Shown piece by piece: positions 17,029-22,463 of a stretch of 64,000 nucleotides of DNA. The notes beneath the pieces were generated by a model. That model searched no databases. It saw nothing but the letters and a program-made list of their open reading frames with translations, and was not told where the DNA came from. Origin of the DNA: Halomonas meridiana (GTDB lineage Bacteria; Pseudomonadota; Gammaproteobacteria; Pseudomonadales; Halomonadaceae); the NCBI RefSeq assembly GCF_009846525.1, contig NZ_CP024621.1:2108001-2172000 (forward strand), in the 5' to 3' direction. The translations under genes were made by a program, and so were the position numbers. Each line of letters opens with the position of its first letter. The first letter of the stretch is position 1.

Positions 17029-17424
17029 ATGGCATTTAACTTTAACCGGTATGATCAAGAGAAAATTTCTGATGGCACATGGGAGGAAATCGATGGTGGG
17101 CAGTTCAAGATAGCCAAGAGCGGAAACCCTCGACATCTTGAAGCTATTGAGCGCATCGGAAAGGAGTTGCAAGAAAAGTGGCCAAATGGCGATATACCTG
17201 TCATTAAGCGAATCGAAGCTAAGGCGAAGGAGTTTGCTGAAGGTGTTCTACGCGACTGGAAGGAGGTTGCTAACACTGATGGTGATAGTGTTCCTTACAG
17301 CGTAGAAAACGCGACAACGCTTTTGATGAATGACGAGCCTCTGTATGAAGCTTTAATGCGCAAGTCGCGCGATATGGCTCGCTTTGAAAATAAGCGGATT
17401 GAATCACAGAAAAAAAAGCGGTAG
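17029..17424 (+). CDS. Tail assembly chaperone, short form (lambda G-like)
   Basis: 131 residues, helical and charged, ending in a lysine run (SQKKKR). It sits directly between tail tube and the second chaperone frame and before the tape measure gene, the position of the lambda G/GT pair. Chaperones of this kind coat the tape measure protein during tail assembly. Its last codons run through eight A and contain the slippery heptamer A AAA AAG in the correct phase, so a fraction of ribosomes should shift -1 into the next frame. The sequence looks more AT-rich than adjacent genes. Confidence 0.75.
   Translation: MAFNFNRYDQEKISDGTWEEIDGGQFKIAKSGNPRHLEAIERIGKELQEKWPNGDIPVIKRIEAKAKEFAEGVLRDWKEVANTDGDSVPYSVENATTLLMNDEPLYEALMRKSRDMARFENKRIESQKKKR
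17412..17418 (+). other. Programmed -1 ribosomal frameshift site (A AAA AAG)
   Basis: In the frame of the short chaperone the codons are AAA (17413) and AAG (17416) with A at 17412, a canonical X-XXY-YYZ slip site, the same heptamer used in E. coli dnaX. A -1 slip continues as KKAVAVLEYDLRA and on to the stop at 17762, giving a 244-residue fusion. The 0-frame stop TAG comes at 17422, four bases after the slip site. Confidence 0.75.
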
Positions 17425-17426
17425 CC

Positions 17427-17762
17427 GTGCTGGAGTACGACCTACGGGCGTCCGGGAAAGAAACCAAAATGGCCGCCATTGCCGCCAAGCTTGGCATGTC
17501 AAAACAAGCCGAGAGGCCAGACGCCGATGAGCGGACCCTGTTCTGGCTCGACACGTACTGGCTGGCGGCAAGAGGTCGTCCGCACACGCACGGCATCCCG
17601 CTGCCCTTGCCGCCGCTAGATATCATCGATCTGATTGAAAAGCTGGAGCTGCCAGCCGAAAGCGACGAGGCCGTGGCCGTGATATGCGCCATGGACGACG
17701 CCTGGATCCGCTGGAAAGACAGTCAGCAAAAGAAGCCTAGCAAAACCAAAGCCGCCCACTAA
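17427..17762 (+). CDS. Tail assembly chaperone, downstream frame (T part of a G-T fusion)
   Basis: The frame is open from the slip site (17412) to 17762. A GTG at 17427 is listed as the formal start but it lacks a ribosome site, so the product is most likely made only as the C-terminal extension of the 17029 gene by -1 frameshifting. The segment reads MLEYDLRASGKETKMAAIAA with a helical body and a lysine-rich end. This is the usual way siphophages make the longer chaperone that contacts the tail tube protein. The stop lies in the following terminator stem. Confidence 0.7.
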   Translation: MLEYDLRASGKETKMAAIAAKLGMSKQAERPDADERTLFWLDTYWLAARGRPHTHGIPLPLPPLDIIDLIEKLELPAESDEAVAVICAMDDAWIRWKDSQQKKPSKTKAAH

Positions 17763-17892: not shown

Positions 17893-17912
17893 AACCCCGC
17901 CGGAGCGGGGTT
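17893..17912 (-). terminator. Terminator hairpin for the HicB-like gene
   Basis: Stem AACCCCGC / GCGGGGTT with CGGA loop. On the - strand it is followed by TTTTTA, so it ends transcription of the HicB-like gene. An 18-base identical copy lies at 18215-18232. Confidence 0.75.
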
Positions 17913-17920
17913 GTGGTTAA

Positions 17921-18202
17921 TCAGGCAAAGGATTGGTAGCTAAGAATCCATCGAAGCCAGTACTGCGCGCGGATGGAGAATGACGACTTCCGGCCAAGCA
18001 TCATTCTCGCCGCCTCCCAATGCCCCTCCTCTGCCAAATCGGCAATGTAGAGAATGTGGCTCGCAATCGTTGCCTCTAGCTTGCGCATAGCCTCGTCTGG
18101 ATTCTCGTGCTGGCATGCAAGCCCAAAATCAATGCAGTGGGCAACGTAAAGGCCTGAGTGTCGGCGGATAAAGCATCGCGGAAAATGCCTTCTTGTGATC
18201 AT
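17921..18202 (-). CDS. Orphan HicB-like protein (moron)
   Basis: 93 residues. The first 60 residues follow the HicB-like N-terminal pattern: a beta strand pair (SGLYVAHCIDFGLACQHENP) and DEAMRKLEATIASHI, the partial RNase H-like fold found in HicB antitoxins. The C-terminal part (MMLGRKSSFSIRAQYWLRWI) is not a clear DNA-binding domain. No HicA-like toxin (small, His-containing dsRNA-binding fold) is found on either side, so it is an orphan. The gene is opposite to the tail operon and has its own terminator. Confidence 0.55.
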   Translation of the reverse strand: MITRRHFPRCFIRRHSGLYVAHCIDFGLACQHENPDEAMRKLEATIASHILYIADLAEEGHWEAARMMLGRKSSFSIRAQYWLRWILSYQSFA

Positions 18203-18213
18203 GGGGTTACCTG

Positions 18214-18233
18214 AAACCCCGCCGGAGCGGGGC
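18214..18233 (-). terminator. Terminator hairpin for the KilA-N gene
   Basis: Same AACCCCGCCGGAGCGGGG hairpin as at 17893, here 8 bases after the KilA-N stop. The T run on the - strand is short (TTTCAG), so read-through into the HicB-like gene is likely. Confidence 0.6.
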
Positions 18234-18240
18234 TGGGTGG

Positions 18241-19203
18241 TTAGTGGCTAAAAATAACAGGGTAGGAAATTTGGCGGCCTAAAGCCTCCAGAATGCGGCT
18301 ATGCACGCTGCTCAGATCGTCTAGCATACTACGCATGGCCTGCACTTCTGCCCGGCAAGCTCCAACGTCATAGCCAGCGGCGACGAGCTCGCCCAGCAGC
18401 ATCAGAGTGGGAGAAACGCTATGGGCTGGATCGCCAGATACATGTTCAGGCCGCACGAATCGTGCTTGACGCCCCTTGCACCCCAAGGGCGGCTGATGCT
18501 TCCAGGCATAAGCCAGTCCTGAGTTAATTTCTGACCAGCGTTCGAGCGGGTAGTGAATTTCCAGGCTTTCGGCTTGATCCGGCAGCGCCGCCTGTGGGCT
18601 GCACAACTCCCCTTCCAGCACTTTGCGAGCAAAGGTGATGCCTAGCTCGATTTGTTCGTGAGTGGCATCTTGAATGCTTTCGAGTCCGAGATAGCCGTTA
18701 ATCTCTCGCCATGCGCTGCTGTAGTCAGACGGATGACCGCGACGAGTGCGAGCATCGACGATGGTGTTGACCAGTTGCTTGAGTGGCGCGCGGTCCTGGG
18801 TGGTGGTTTTGCCGATACGCTTGGGGGTGTGGTCATTTTGAACACGGGTCAGCTTACCCATGCGGTAATCGAGAAACACCTGATTAACCTGTAGTTGAAA
18901 GCGAGCGCTAATCCATCCTGCGTAGCTGACAGCTAATAACTCATGAGCGTACGTGCCTCGGCTTGAACCGCCATGCTTTGAGCCGATTGCAGCAAAGCCC
19001 GATTTCGGGCTTTGGGATTCAAGCTCCTCAATAAGCTCTTTTGCCTGGGCTGTTACCGTCCATTTTGATGGGCGCTTATGCTCACCTTCTCCGCTGGCCT
19101 TATGGATAGCATTAAGGCTAAAACGACCATGCTCATCAGTTGTAATTTCATGCCCAGCGATAACGGGTAGCTGCGAAGATTCGGTTGCGATGTTAGAATT
19201 CAT
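18241..19203 (-). CDS. KilA-N domain protein, phage antirepressor-like
   Basis: 320 residues from ATG 19203, which has a good ribosome site (AAAGGTGAC); a GTG at 19299 would add 32 low-complexity residues and would overlap the upstream RHH gene. KilA-N domain: ITTDEHGRFSLNAIHKASGE, HKRPSKWTVTAQAKELIEEL, then THGGSS-type loop and YAHELLAVSYAGWISARFQL. This domain binds DNA and occurs in phage antirepressors. The C-terminal half (from PSDYSSAWREINGYLGLESI) is a separate helical region found in some phage antirepressor proteins. Two ribbon-helix-helix genes adjoin it, as with ant in P22 immI. Confidence 0.75.
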   Translation of the reverse strand: MNSNIATESSQLPVIAGHEITTDEHGRFSLNAIHKASGEGEHKRPSKWTVTAQAKELIEELESQSPKSGFAAIGSKHGGSSRGTYAHELLAVSYAGWISARFQLQVNQVFLDYRMGKLTRVQNDHTPKRIGKTTTQDRAPLKQLVNTIVDARTRRGHPSDYSSAWREINGYLGLESIQDATHEQIELGITFARKVLEGELCSPQAALPDQAESLEIHYPLERWSEINSGLAYAWKHQPPLGCKGRQARFVRPEHVSGDPAHSVSPTLMLLGELVAAGYDVGACRAEVQAMRSMLDDLSSVHSRILEALGRQISYPVIFSH

Positions 19204-19276
19204 GTTGTCACCTTTCGTAGTGGTTTGGTCGACATTCGAGGCCTCAAGTGTTCCAGCACTTGGGGCTTCTTTCGTT

Positions 19277-19432
19277 TCAGGCTGGCTTTTGCTGCTCACG
19301 CTGCATCATCTCCCGTATTGCTTGGTTGGCTAGCCATGTCTTGCTTAGGCGTAGCTCTTTCGCCCGTTTCTCAAGCCAAGCATTTAGCTCTGGCTCAAGG
19401 CGGAGGTTGAATTGAGGATGTTGTCTGGTCAT
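19277..19432 (-). CDS. Arc-like ribbon-helix-helix repressor
   Basis: 51 residues, too short for most gene finders. MTRQHPQFNLRLEPELNAW then LEKRAKELRLSKTWLANQAI is a complete ribbon-helix-helix fold of the Arc/Mnt type: a beta strand with polar alternating residues that contact DNA, then two helices. It lies upstream of and slightly overlaps the extended KilA-N frame, so both probably share one transcript from the divergent promoter region at 19433-19531. By analogy with P22 Arc it would repress the antirepressor transcript. Confidence 0.7.
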   Translation of the reverse strand: MTRQHPQFNLRLEPELNAWLEKRAKELRLSKTWLANQAIREMMQREQQKPA

Positions 19433-19531
19433 AAGGCACCCATATAGCTAATGGCTTTGTTTTTGCTGCATAGCTGAATGCTAGCTCATTGCTTCATTGG
19501 CAGCAATACCCTTTTGCTATATTTTTGCTGC
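19433..19531. promoter_or_regulatory. Divergent operator/promoter region with repeated elements
   Basis: Between two divergent RHH genes. A 12-base exact repeat TTTTTGCTGCAT occurs at 19460-19471 and 19522-19533 (the second covers the ATG of the rightward gene). Three copies of a TAGCT-(G/A/C)A(A/T)TG-like element start near 19445, 19471 and 19482. A possible rightward promoter is TTGGCA (19497) and TATATT (19518), spacer 15. The transcript would begin almost at the ATG and no ribosome site is seen, so the rightward mRNA may be leaderless. Confidence 0.5.
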
Positions 19532-19780
19532 ATGAATGAAGAAACCGTACAGCTCAACTTAAAAGTGCCCGCCTCGTTGCGCGATCAACTGCGTGATGCG
19601 GCTGCGGCCAACCACCGTTCAATGACTGCTGAACTCATTTCCAGGGTGAGCATGTCGTTTGAATACGACACGCCTATAGATCGGGTTAACACACTGGAAA
19701 CGAGGATCTTTGAGCTCGAAATGTTCCTGAAGAAACAGTTTCCAGATGAATACGAGCCATGGGAAAGGAGGCGGCGATGA
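19532..19780 (+). CDS. Arc/Mnt-like ribbon-helix-helix regulator with coiled-coil tail
   Basis: 82 residues from ATG 19532. MNEETVQLNLKVPASLRDQL, RDAAAANHRSMTAELISRV is an RHH fold (strand VQLNLKVP, then two helices), followed by an acidic helical tail (VNTLETRIFELEMFLKKQF) that probably tetramerises, as in Mnt. Divergent from the Arc-like gene at 19277, sharing the repeat-bearing intergenic region. The stop overlaps the start of the exported protein gene at 19777, so both are likely co-transcribed. Confidence 0.75.
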   Translation: MNEETVQLNLKVPASLRDQLRDAAAANHRSMTAELISRVSMSFEYDTPIDRVNTLETRIFELEMFLKKQFPDEYEPWERRRR

Positions 19781-20139
19781 AGCTTTTAGCAGCAGCCCTG
19801 GCGGCTTTGGCGTTTTTGGCAAGCAGCTCGGCTTACGCTGAGGCTATTGAAGATGTCGATGCTTTTGTGGAAGAACTTCCTGCCAGAATAGAGCTAGCTT
19901 CGTTTGCAGCGGAACGGTGTAGATCAGCCTTGCGGTCTAATGGTGACCCCTCTTCTAAGCACTGCATCGACCTTCTGGACAAACAGGCGGATGTTGTAAT
20001 TATGATGCGCAATGCGATCATTTTTAGCGAGGAACGGCCTGGCGTACTCGACTCAAGGTTTGATCAGGATACCGTCATGCGAATGGATATGCAGCGTAGA
20101 GAGATTGATAGAGTAGTGAACATGATAATGATCGACTGA
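19777..20139 (+). CDS. Small exported protein, unknown function (possible lysogenic conversion gene)
   Basis: 120 residues, ATG overlapping the upstream regulator stop. A clear Sec signal peptide (KLLAAALAALAFLASSSAYA, cleavage after AYA) leads to a mature helical protein with two cysteines (ERCRSALRS, SKHCIDLLD) likely to form one disulfide in the periplasm. No family recognised. Co-expression with an RHH regulator rather than with the tail genes suggests it is made in the lysogen. Ends 20 bases before a strong terminator. Confidence 0.55.
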   Translation: MKLLAAALAALAFLASSSAYAEAIEDVDAFVEELPARIELASFAAERCRSALRSNGDPSSKHCIDLLDKQADVVIMMRNAIIFSEERPGVLDSRFDQDTVMRMDMQRREIDRVVNMIMID

Positions 20140-20159
20140 AATTTAAGCCTTAAATCACA

Positions 20160-20184
20160 GCCCCGCCATTGAGCGGGGTTTTTT
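20160..20184 (+). terminator. Rho-independent terminator before the tape measure gene
   Basis: Perfect stem CCCCGC / GCGGGG with CATTGA loop and six T. It separates the accessory genes from the tail genes. Confidence 0.85.
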
Positions 20185-20201: not shown

Positions 20202-22463
20202 ATGGCCTACAAAAGCACGCTCCATATCGCAATCGATAGTACAGGTGCCGAAAAGCAACTCAAGCGCTTAGAGGATCGGTTAGAGCTGACGGAGAAGTCC
20301 GGCAAGAAAACTTCAGGCTCCATCGGCAGGCTCACGGCCACAATGAAGGCGGCAGGCGGAGTCATGCTCGGACTTGGTGCTAGCGCTGGAGTCTTTACCG
20401 CTATTGCTCGTAACGCCGCCCAATCAGCCGCCGAGATCGACAATCTATCTCGCCTAGCCAACACCAATGCGCAGGATTTTCAGCGGTTAGCCTTCGCATC
20501 AAGCGCTTATGGGGTAGAGCAAGAAAAATTAGCCGATATTCTCAAGGACACCAACGATCGTGTTGGTGACTTCCTGAGTACCGGCGGCGGCGAGATGAAA
20601 GACTTCTTCGAGCAGATAGCGCCGCAGATCGGCATTACCGCTGAGGAGTTTCGCAACCTTTCCGGCCCTGAGGCGCTACAAAAATACTATGACGGCTTGC
20701 AGGCTGCGAACCTCAGTCAAGCTGAGATGACGTTTTACATGGAATCCGTGGCTGATGAAGCAACCGCCCTGATCCCATTGCTGCGCGATGGCGGAGCCGA
20801 GATGGATAGGCTAGGCAAAGAAGCGGACGACCTGAACGCCGTGCTTAGCAACATGGAAATCCAACGATTAAAGGATATTCGCGGCGAGTTTAGCCAGCTT
20901 GGGCAGCAACTTAGCACTGAAACTATGCGCGCCGTATCGCAATTTGACGAATTGTTCAAATCCTCACTGGAGGGAATTAGCACCGGCGTCAATAGCGTGG
21001 CACGCGGCTTCAACGTCTTTATGGATTCGTTTAGAGATGCCGAGGCGATGCGCAGCCTCACCGCTATCGATCAGCAGATAGCTGAGATTGAGGGGCGCTT
21101 AGCGGGCGGCACGGTCGGGTCGGGAGTTCTCGGAATGGGTGGCGGCACCTTTACTGAGACGGCTCTAGCCGCAGCAGGGGCATCCGCCACTATCAATGAG
21201 TTCAATGCTGAACTTATTACTCTGCGCGCCCGAAAAGAGGAGCTACAAAGGGGCGGCCCTGTGGTTGAAGAGCCAGAGATTGTATCAATCTCAAGGGCCA
21301 CTGCTGGCACTTCTGAACTTGCTGACGCTATCAAAGACGTCCAGCAAGAAGCCGACCGCTTCGCCTCCACCCTACAATCCCTCACCGATCGTCTATTCCC
21401 CGTAGAGGCTGCGCAGCGCGCCTATCGAGAAGAGCAAGCCGCCCTCACCCGCGCATGGAACGAAGGGACCATTACCGCCGATCGCTACACCGAGGCCATG
21501 CTACGCCTGGAGCGTGCGCAGCTCAGCACGCAAACGGCAGCCGGTGCTTACGGTAGCGGCGGCGGCTTTGGCTCCGAGATCGGCAGCCGTGGCGGCGTGG
21601 GCGCACCGACTGACCCGCTGGCTGGTATTGGCGGCAACCAGGATAAAGACTACTGGCAGAAGTGGCTCGACAGCGCTGAAACTGCGCTGACCGACTTCGA
21701 CCAGCTCGCTGCGAACACCGCCGAGAATTTCCAGCGCGGCTTTGGAAATGCGTTTGAGTCGATGGTATTTGACTCGGAGAGTACAGGTGATGCGGTTCGC
21801 AACATGTTCCAAGGCATTGCCAGAACCTTGGTCAACACCCTAGGCCAAATGGCTGCGCAGTGGCTCGCTTACCAGGCCGTGCAGCTTGCCATGGGCAAAT
21901 CCTCGGAAGCGGCGGCGATAGGCTCAGCCGTAGCCACGGGCTCATCCATTGCAGCTGCTTATGCACCGGCGGCGGCGGCCGCCTCTCTTGCATCGTTTGG
22001 CGCAAACTCGGTGCCTGCGATGGCGGGAATGTCTGCCACATACGGATTGAGCAGCACGCTCGCTTTAACGGGATTCTCTAACGGCGGCTACACCGGACCT
22101 GGCGGCAAATACGACCCCGCTGGCATTGTCCACGCGGGTGAATTCGTCGTGCGCAAAGAGATGGTCGAGCGCCCTGGCGTGCTGGCGATGCTTGAAGGGT
22201 TGAACCGAGGCTATGCCAATGGCGGGTATGTTGGTTCTTCGCCCGCGGCGAGTGACAGGCTTGACAATTACCGCTCTGGCTCAATGAGAGAGGGAAGCCA
22301 GCCTGCTCTTGTGATCGAAAAGGCCGGCAACCACTACTCATTCCAAGGCAAGCCAGACAAGCAGACGATCAAGCTGATCGAGCAGGCCGAGGAGCGGGCA
22401 TATCAACGAGTTCTCAGGGATGCTCGGAGAAATCTGGACATTAGACAAACGCTAGGCGTCTAA
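20202..22463 (+). CDS. Phage tail tape measure protein
   Basis: 753 residues from ATG 20202 (ribosome site TGGAGATAACC); the frame upstream to 20169 runs through the terminator. The protein sets tail length and helps channel formation at injection. Evidence: long charged helices in the first 130 residues, GGVMLGLGASAGVFTAIA hydrophobic stretch, repeated NLSRLANTNAQDFQRLAFAS-type segment typical of siphophage tape measures, hydrophobic and alanine-rich segments at about residues 545-625, and a C-terminal GGYTGPGGKYDPAGIVHAGE region (hydrophobic glycine-rich, 'FVVRKEMV') seen at the end of many tape measure proteins. Transcription starts afresh after the accessory genes. Confidence 0.9.
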   Translation: MAYKSTLHIAIDSTGAEKQLKRLEDRLELTEKSGKKTSGSIGRLTATMKAAGGVMLGLGASAGVFTAIARNAAQSAAEIDNLSRLANTNAQDFQRLAFASSAYGVEQEKLADILKDTNDRVGDFLSTGGGEMKDFFEQIAPQIGITAEEFRNLSGPEALQKYYDGLQAANLSQAEMTFYMESVADEATALIPLLRDGGAEMDRLGKEADDLNAVLSNMEIQRLKDIRGEFSQLGQQLSTETMRAVSQFDELFKSSLEGISTGVNSVARGFNVFMDSFRDAEAMRSLTAIDQQIAEIEGRLAGGTVGSGVLGMGGGTFTETALAAAGASATINEFNAELITLRARKEELQRGGPVVEEPEIVSISRATAGTSELADAIKDVQQEADRFASTLQSLTDRLFPVEAAQRAYREEQAALTRAWNEGTITADRYTEAMLRLERAQLSTQTAAGAYGSGGGFGSEIGSRGGVGAPTDPLAGIGGNQDKDYWQKWLDSAETALTDFDQLAANTAENFQRGFGNAFESMVFDSESTGDAVRNMFQGIARTLVNTLGQMAAQWLAYQAVQLAMGKSSEAAAIGSAVATGSSIAAAYAPAAAAASLASFGANSVPAMAGMSATYGLSSTLALTGFSNGGYTGPGGKYDPAGIVHAGEFVVRKEMVERPGVLAMLEGLNRGYANGGYVGSSPAASDRLDNYRSGSMREGSQPALVIEKAGNHYSFQGKPDKQTIKLIEQAEERAYQRVLRDARRNLDIRQTLGV

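Follow-up and report, generated by a model that had tools for sequence, protein, structure and literature searches.

A probable P22-type immI module, with a predicted antisense RNA of the sar type, among the tail genes of a Halomonas meridiana siphoprophage

Why would a set of repressor and antirepressor genes stand inside a tail operon, flanked by tail chaperone genes on one side and by the tape measure gene on the other? The question is raised by the window, the whole stretch of 64,000 nucleotides of Halomonas meridiana DNA that was analysed. It carries a prophage of ~49.5 kb, bounded on both sides by a direct repeat 60 or more bases long, and in this prophage a gap of 2439 bases separates two tail chaperone genes from the tape measure gene. 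From left to right, the gap holds a 93-aa gene, a KilA-N gene and an Arc-like gene, all on the minus strand, then 99 bases, and then a Mnt-like gene and the gene of a 120-aa secreted protein, both on the plus strand. We consider it probable that the gap holds a P22-type immI module ("ant moron") within the tail operon of a siphoprophage, working by the Mnt/Arc/Ant/sar circuit proposed below. The features are the following.

17029..17762, plus strand: two tail assembly chaperone genes, the left border of the junction
17921..18202, minus strand: 93-aa gene, phrog_12841 (PHROG, 7e-14), downstream of ant
18217..18232, no strand assigned: terminator-like hairpin CCCCGCCGGAGCGGGG behind ant, seen in the sequence
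18241..19203, minus strand: ant-like antirepressor gene, 320 aa, with a KilA-N N-terminal domain and a P22-Ant-like middle part
19191..19199, plus strand: candidate Psar with an extended -10, TGTTAGAAT, that falls within the initial codons of ant, proposed from the sequence
19204..19277, plus strand: predicted antisense RNA of the sar type, directed at the leader and ribosome site of ant (Rfam RF00262, model R1, covariation)
19277..19432, minus strand: Arc-like RHH repressor gene, 51 aa, sharing the PQFNLR strand of P22 Arc (phrog_3180, 2.9e-6)
19433..19531, no strand assigned: divergent control region, 99 bases, with the 12-mer copies and TAGCTGAATGCTA at 19471-19483; putative operators
19478..19506, minus strand: weak candidate Pant, -35 at 19506-19501 and -10 at 19483-19478 (7/12 matches)
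19497..19525, plus strand: candidate Pmnt, TTGGCA-17-TATTTT (promoter scan)
19532..19780, plus strand: Mnt-like RHH repressor gene, 82 aa (Pfam Arc, 3.5e-10, above cut-off)
19777..20139, plus strand: gene of a 120-aa secreted protein (signal peptide by eye), its start overlapping the mnt stop as ATGA
20159..20180, plus strand: terminator between the secreted-protein gene and the tape measure gene (terminator scan)
20202..22463, plus strand: tail tape measure protein gene, the right border (PHROG, 2e-85; start picked by eye)

On the left border, 17029-17424 matches the tail chaperone phrog_8233 (8e-14, PHROG), and 17427-17762 matches both phrog_1189 (function not annotated, 1.7e-9) and the tail chaperonin phrog_3817 (6e-5). 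It is uncertain whether the 93-aa gene belongs to the module. The hairpin at 18217-18232 is not among the entries of the computed hairpin and terminator scan of the stretch. Its stem recurs at 17893-17912, and the two terminator-like copies flank the 93-aa gene.

A KilA-N antirepressor-like gene and an Arc-like gene reading leftward and a Mnt-like gene reading rightward had been described in a first, sequence-only reading, and all three are present by open reading frames, Pfam and PHROG. The ant frame (18241-19299) opens at a GTG, but a good ribosome site, CGAAAGGTGACAACATG on the minus strand, belongs to the ATG at 19203. The product joins a KilA-N domain on residues 17-114 (Pfam PF04383, E 1.3e-19) to a middle part homologous to P22 Ant, which gives an Ant match on residues 126-219 (phrog_245, 1.5e-7) and aligns at 32% with P22 Ant over residues 132-204 (E 2e-7). 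The Arc homologue of a P22-type immI, an RHH protein of about 53 aa, is represented by the 51-aa product through its PHROG match and a short match to P22 Arc (10/21 identical, E 0.001), the Pfam models HicB, RHH_1 and Arc all scoring under their cut-offs at 13.5-16.5 bits. The Mnt homologue, also an RHH protein, most likely starts at 19532 (82 aa), and a start at 19478 was set aside. It aligns with P22 Mnt at 31% over 49 aa (E 1e-7), matches the Mnt of P22-like phages in tblastn (38.8% over 49 aa) and has a putative coiled-coil tail, heptad-like by eye. The mnt gene reads divergently from the arc-ant operon, as in a P22-type immI.

The circuit that we propose follows the behaviour of P22 as reported in PMC11016777, and we infer each of its steps of binding, expression and function. 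A lysogen would keep arc and ant silent through Mnt, which would come from a probably leaderless promoter of its own and block Pant, and the mnt transcript would also yield the secreted protein, probably excluding superinfecting phages. The entry of the phage into a Mnt-free cell, or a drop in Mnt, would let Pant fire and produce a burst of Ant. This would bind and block a CI/C2-type repressor, either the S24 repressor of its own prophage or that of a resident prophage. Arc would then shut Pant, while the sar RNA would pair with the ant leader and stop its translation. An S24-type repressor gene is indeed present in the same prophage and is a possible Ant target. The role as a second switch or in superinfection, which had been put forward from the letters, would follow naturally.

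The KilA-N protein may instead target other resident prophages or the host and serve phage-phage competition, not self-induction; this is a variant of the circuit, compatible with it, which we regard as rather unlikely. The C-terminal part of the window Ant is 87% identical to that of the Ant of L005/L263, whose N-terminal domain and control differ, the N-terminal KilA-N domain is common to the window Ant and P1 KilA, and P22 immI was held dispensable for lysis and lysogeny, though PMC11016777 reports that its deletion lowers the lysogeny frequency; these points speak for such a use. The fitting S24-type repressor in the same prophage argues against it.

The region between the divergent genes had been measured in the sequence-only reading as 99 bases, as is the case for 19433-19531, and credited with a duplicated 12-mer and further repeats. 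The 12-mer TTTTTGCTGCAT does occur at 19460-19471 and 19522-19533, but only 10 bases repeat exactly inside the 99, because the second copy enters the mnt start codon by two bases, and such a length is reached in 4.4% of 5000 dinucleotide shuffles. The further repeats are present as six TAGC/GCTA half-sites (reached in 2.8% of shuffles) and one TAGC-N5-GCTA (1.5%, for a motif picked after looking), whereas some 4-N5-4 inverted repeat arises in 52% of shuffles, which counts against an operator signal. With these rates, the repeats are modest and non-decisive. The Pant candidate is a poor sigma-70 match and falls under the threshold of the promoter scan, which gave 4 promoter-like sites in the stretch against 2.0 expected. 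The Pmnt candidate ends 6 bases 5' of the mnt ATG, and the mnt mRNA is likely leaderless.

The operator candidates of the window are weak and lack the clear palindromes found in the divergent regions of relatives. When unlike phages are compared, these palindromes mostly vary together with the beta strand of Mnt. The strand RSQFRLP goes with TAGTGACA/TGTCACTA palindromes (G150, G233, G024), a class in which the roles of Arc and Mnt are indistinguishable because both strands change together. PYPLRMP goes with ATCCAC/GTGGAT (G056, Halomonas sp. SSL-5, G224), with the exception of the Comamonas Mnt, which has the same strand but palindromes built on GACTC...GAGTC. DPQYKLR goes with GGTACC-type repeats (L004, G065); AGGTACCT is present in its loci G047 and G007, where no inverted repeat with six or more bases per arm is found. 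For the window strand, VQLNLKVP, the relatives compared offer no counterpart whose site is known. On the Arc side, TAG-N7-CTA, as in the P22 Arc operator, occurs in 15 of 22 loci with QFNLR, the window included, against 4 of 58 others, the 22 being mostly close P22 kin. Our best guess is that this motif would be the window operator.

Downstream of mnt, the 120-aa protein shows nothing significant in Pfam and one weak PHROG match (function not annotated, 0.0018). No relative was found in the other 274 genomes or in the viral contigs; one of these searches used exact peptide seeds, which distant kin may escape. The single-sequence structure model of the protein (pLDDT 62.9) is too poor for searching. 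By gene position only, it is a candidate for a protein that excludes superinfecting phages. This gene coupled to mnt, like the sar-type RNA discussed below, is absent from the sequence-only reading.

That reading had also found the junction of tail chaperone and tape measure genes an unexpected place for immunity genes. P22 immI also lies in the late operon, where PMC2629481 describes it as an "ant moron", and antirepressor modules recur at the junction. Among 275 genomes of the family, 8 have the second chaperone, 7 of them readable into the gap (G041 was left out at a contig edge), and an antirepressor-type gene stands at the junction in 5 of these 7 prophages, the window included. The place is therefore not odd, and the objection falls. 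The antirepressor genes are so identified by Pfam in the window, G150, G143 and G227, and G252 has a Rha-type regulator; the remaining gaps hold only a small membrane protein (G195, 405 bases) or are empty (G029, 133 bases). G227 ends before the tape measure gene, which is seen in the viral contig L264, identical over 4715/4715 bases. In G143, an XRE repressor replaces Mnt and a sar element precedes an ORF6N-type ant. The complete order (ant, sar, arc, mnt, secreted protein, terminator, tape measure) is found again at this junction in G150, with a different sequence, and the G150 Ant gives nothing significant in a protein comparison with that of the window. In both, ant opposes the tail genes while mnt and the secreted-protein gene read with them. 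In G233, G056, G104, L004 and L007, the module adjoins a giant frame of 1116 to 2812 aa, some of these frames touching the edge of the segment that was read, and ant reads in the direction of the frame, like ant beside P22 gene 16.

Other cargo was noted at such junctions. L005/L263 carry a cassette of ~6 kb with an S24 repressor, a CopG-like gene, a P22_AR_N-type Ant and several secreted or unannotated proteins, and L006 has part of this gene set plus a SocA/Panacea gene (Pfam). In L259:9814-11229 (G136), a 471-aa gene lies between the antirepressor gene and the tape measure gene; its product resembles, by eye, a PilX-type protein of type IV pili, with only DUF7305 in Pfam (5e-10) and nothing in PHROGs.

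Could the module be a decaying passenger, formerly a P22-type switch and functionless in a siphophage? The weak operator repeats and Pant of the window are consistent with this, as is the finding of no DNA-level relative of the module in the phage collection. Against it, all frames are open, the starts, terminators and sar hairpin are intact, the end repeat of the prophage is present, and G150 keeps the same order in spite of its different sequence, which makes decay improbable.

P22 sar is a classic case of antisense RNA control. A strong hairpin in the 73-base gap between arc and ant, antisense to the ant leader, was seen on reading the sequence before any Rfam match. In a search of 3.3 kb against 4227 Rfam families, sar (RF00262) was then matched in full length at 19204-19270 on the plus strand, antisense to the ant start, with 32.1 bits and E 8e-4, which falls below the gathering cut-off of 43 bits. 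The match spans both hairpins of the model, its 5' end adjoins the ant start codon as in P22, and it is the sole match of its own genome at E <= 0.1. The terminator hairpin at 19238-19269 has 14 pairs (hairpin scan), and the 3' limit at 19277 is taken from model R1, built with the window locus included. The Psar candidate is not among the entries of the promoter scan of the stretch; P22 Psar is likewise annotated inside the first ant codons (NC_002371).

Over 24 loci, 15 of them chosen by a pattern in which part of the stem is prescribed but its four central pairs are free, the hairpin exceeds shuffles and slid controls on 4 of 5 measures: 97.0% of cells are paired against 86.5% after shuffling, 37 cells show double changes against 14.5, and covariation is 0.422 against 0.219, none of 500 shuffles being as high in any of the three. 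The measure "further pair types" shows no excess over these loci (181/500 shuffles as high). Pairing alone was dropped as proof of sar: of the free cells, 128 of 144 are paired in 36 distinct pattern-hit hairpins from genomes that lack an RHH gene, and 125 of 140 in 35 that have one. Pairing is thus not special, and position and full-length matches carry the weight. The sar of the window, a predicted RNA in the arc-ant gap, is accordingly indicated by a Rfam match under the gathering score, by covariation and by linkage.

In each of the six leaders of Halomonas type or from Comamonas that were compared, the ant frame runs open across the sar hairpin for ~32 codons 5' of the start, and an alternative ant start overlapping arc is possible. 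The same opening is absent in the leaders of P22 and Emek, where the hairpin is kept as RNA and not as peptide, because the leader before ant has ant-frame stops there.

How far does the element spread? Over 369 genomes of the class, its own included, Rfam sar is found in 18 at E <= 0.1, none above the cut-off, and among its 19 loci only those of the window and G498 (Comamonas) combine an ant match with an RHH gene, as judged by a profile search of both strands out to 450 bases. The 32-base pattern gives 56 loci in the genome collection, and at 13 of these the end of an RHH gene lies no more than ~60 bases from the hairpin: two Halomonas, Vreelandella, Pseudomonas aeruginosa PA7, Comamonas, Chromobacterium, Aquitalea, and six genomes of enteric bacteria or Xenorhabdus. 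Of the remaining 43, many resemble plain terminators and a few precede ant-like genes. In viral contigs, the pattern has at least 120 loci, at least 81 with such an RHH gene. Model R1 finds 52 of the 275 family genomes at E <= 1e-3, 23 of 63 rows starting at model position 30 or later (hairpin only). It matches within 0.75 kb of the Mnt-like gene in 13 of the 15 family genomes that have one, the window genome included and G267 and G134 excepted; 8 of these 13 loci lie outside its building set, IMG/VR near copies aside, and the R1 scores of G143 and G150 are by construction, since both are in its alignment. Among 17 further R1 loci read, an RHH gene lies beside the match in 10 and not in 7. R1 has no match in L263, L264 or L288.

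By eye, mnt/arc/sar sets were seen in seemingly P2-like prophages in G007 (L326), G008 (L327), G024 (L331), G065 (L336) and G047 (L328), where the gene behind sar is unmatched by the antirepressor references. Three small proteins behind sar were scanned; one has no PHROG match and two belong to phrog_6684 (function not annotated).

That the sar signal is a mere terminator hairpin between converging transcripts is very improbable: ordinary terminator-like hairpins do fit the pattern, but both Rfam hairpins are covered with the 5' end at the ant start, an extended -10 lies within the ant codons, and the model matches recur beside the Mnt-like genes as counted above.

The P22-type immI reading, which builds on the gene order, the protein families, the sar element with its covariation and the recurrence of the arrangement, can be extended, tentatively and with some doubt. 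Arc-sar may be a mobile, RNA-controlled switch cassette that occurs in unlike proteobacterial phages (P22-like, P2-like, siphophages) and takes varied repressors and antirepressors, and target genes of other kinds as well; where it stands between chaperone and tape measure, it would be a docking unit coupling a lysogenic repressor to an exclusion protein beside a tape measure gene to be spared. The junction is a repeated site of antirepressor modules, which bears on why such genes are found in late operons. With sar present together with the full circuit in loci of the Halomonas family and of Comamonas, and alongside arc and ant in Pseudomonas, its conservation can be tested, and the new loci supply natural variants of operator, RNA and Ant. 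In the papers found, sar is tied to P22 and its close kin, with the exception of a low-homology case in a mycobacterial prophage (PMC6582537), and among the matches listed none describes sar next to arc/ant in phages that are not P22-like. The module is new in its place and its orientation, in joining a KilA-N Ant to this circuit in a phage that is not P22-like, and in having sar together with arc far outside the enteric phages.

Several known systems resemble the module in part. The S24-repressor/CopG-like/Ant cassettes of L005/L263 and L264/G227 share with the window the junction, the orientation and the order of repressor, secreted protein and tape measure, but in them an S24 repressor replaces Mnt, which would tie them to SOS. 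The HK97 gp15 moron, placed between chaperone and tape measure genes, is not known to have an antirepressor switch attached. Its likeness to the window is one of position, a small envelope protein gene adjoining the tape measure gene (PMC10883804). The immI of Salmonella phage vB_SemP_Emek has, like the window, mnt, arc, a sar-type hairpin and an ant annotated KilA-N (NC_018275); unlike the window, it belongs to a P22-like phage, with the place and orientation of P22 and an extra small gene between arc and ant.

The closest logic is that of P22 immI itself (NC_002371), as the sequence-only reading had recognized: mnt diverges from arc-ant, sar lies at the P22 position in the arc-ant gap and the middle part of Ant is common to both, with a divergent gap of 99 bases in the window and 90 in P22 and an arc-ant gap of 73 and 68. 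Both modules stand inside a late operon and have on the mnt side an exclusion gene, sieA in P22 and the candidate in the window, but sieA follows orf59a and has its own annotated promoter, while coupling to mnt marks the secreted-protein gene of the window. The window Ant has KilA-N in front, where P22 Ant has what we take to be P22_AR_N. Unlike that of P22, the window module belongs to a siphophage and is set between its tail chaperone and tape measure genes, and its ant reads against the late genes, whereas P22 ant reads with them. Late read-through would therefore cover mnt, the secreted-protein gene and the sar strand, antisense to ant, where in P22 it gives ant sense.
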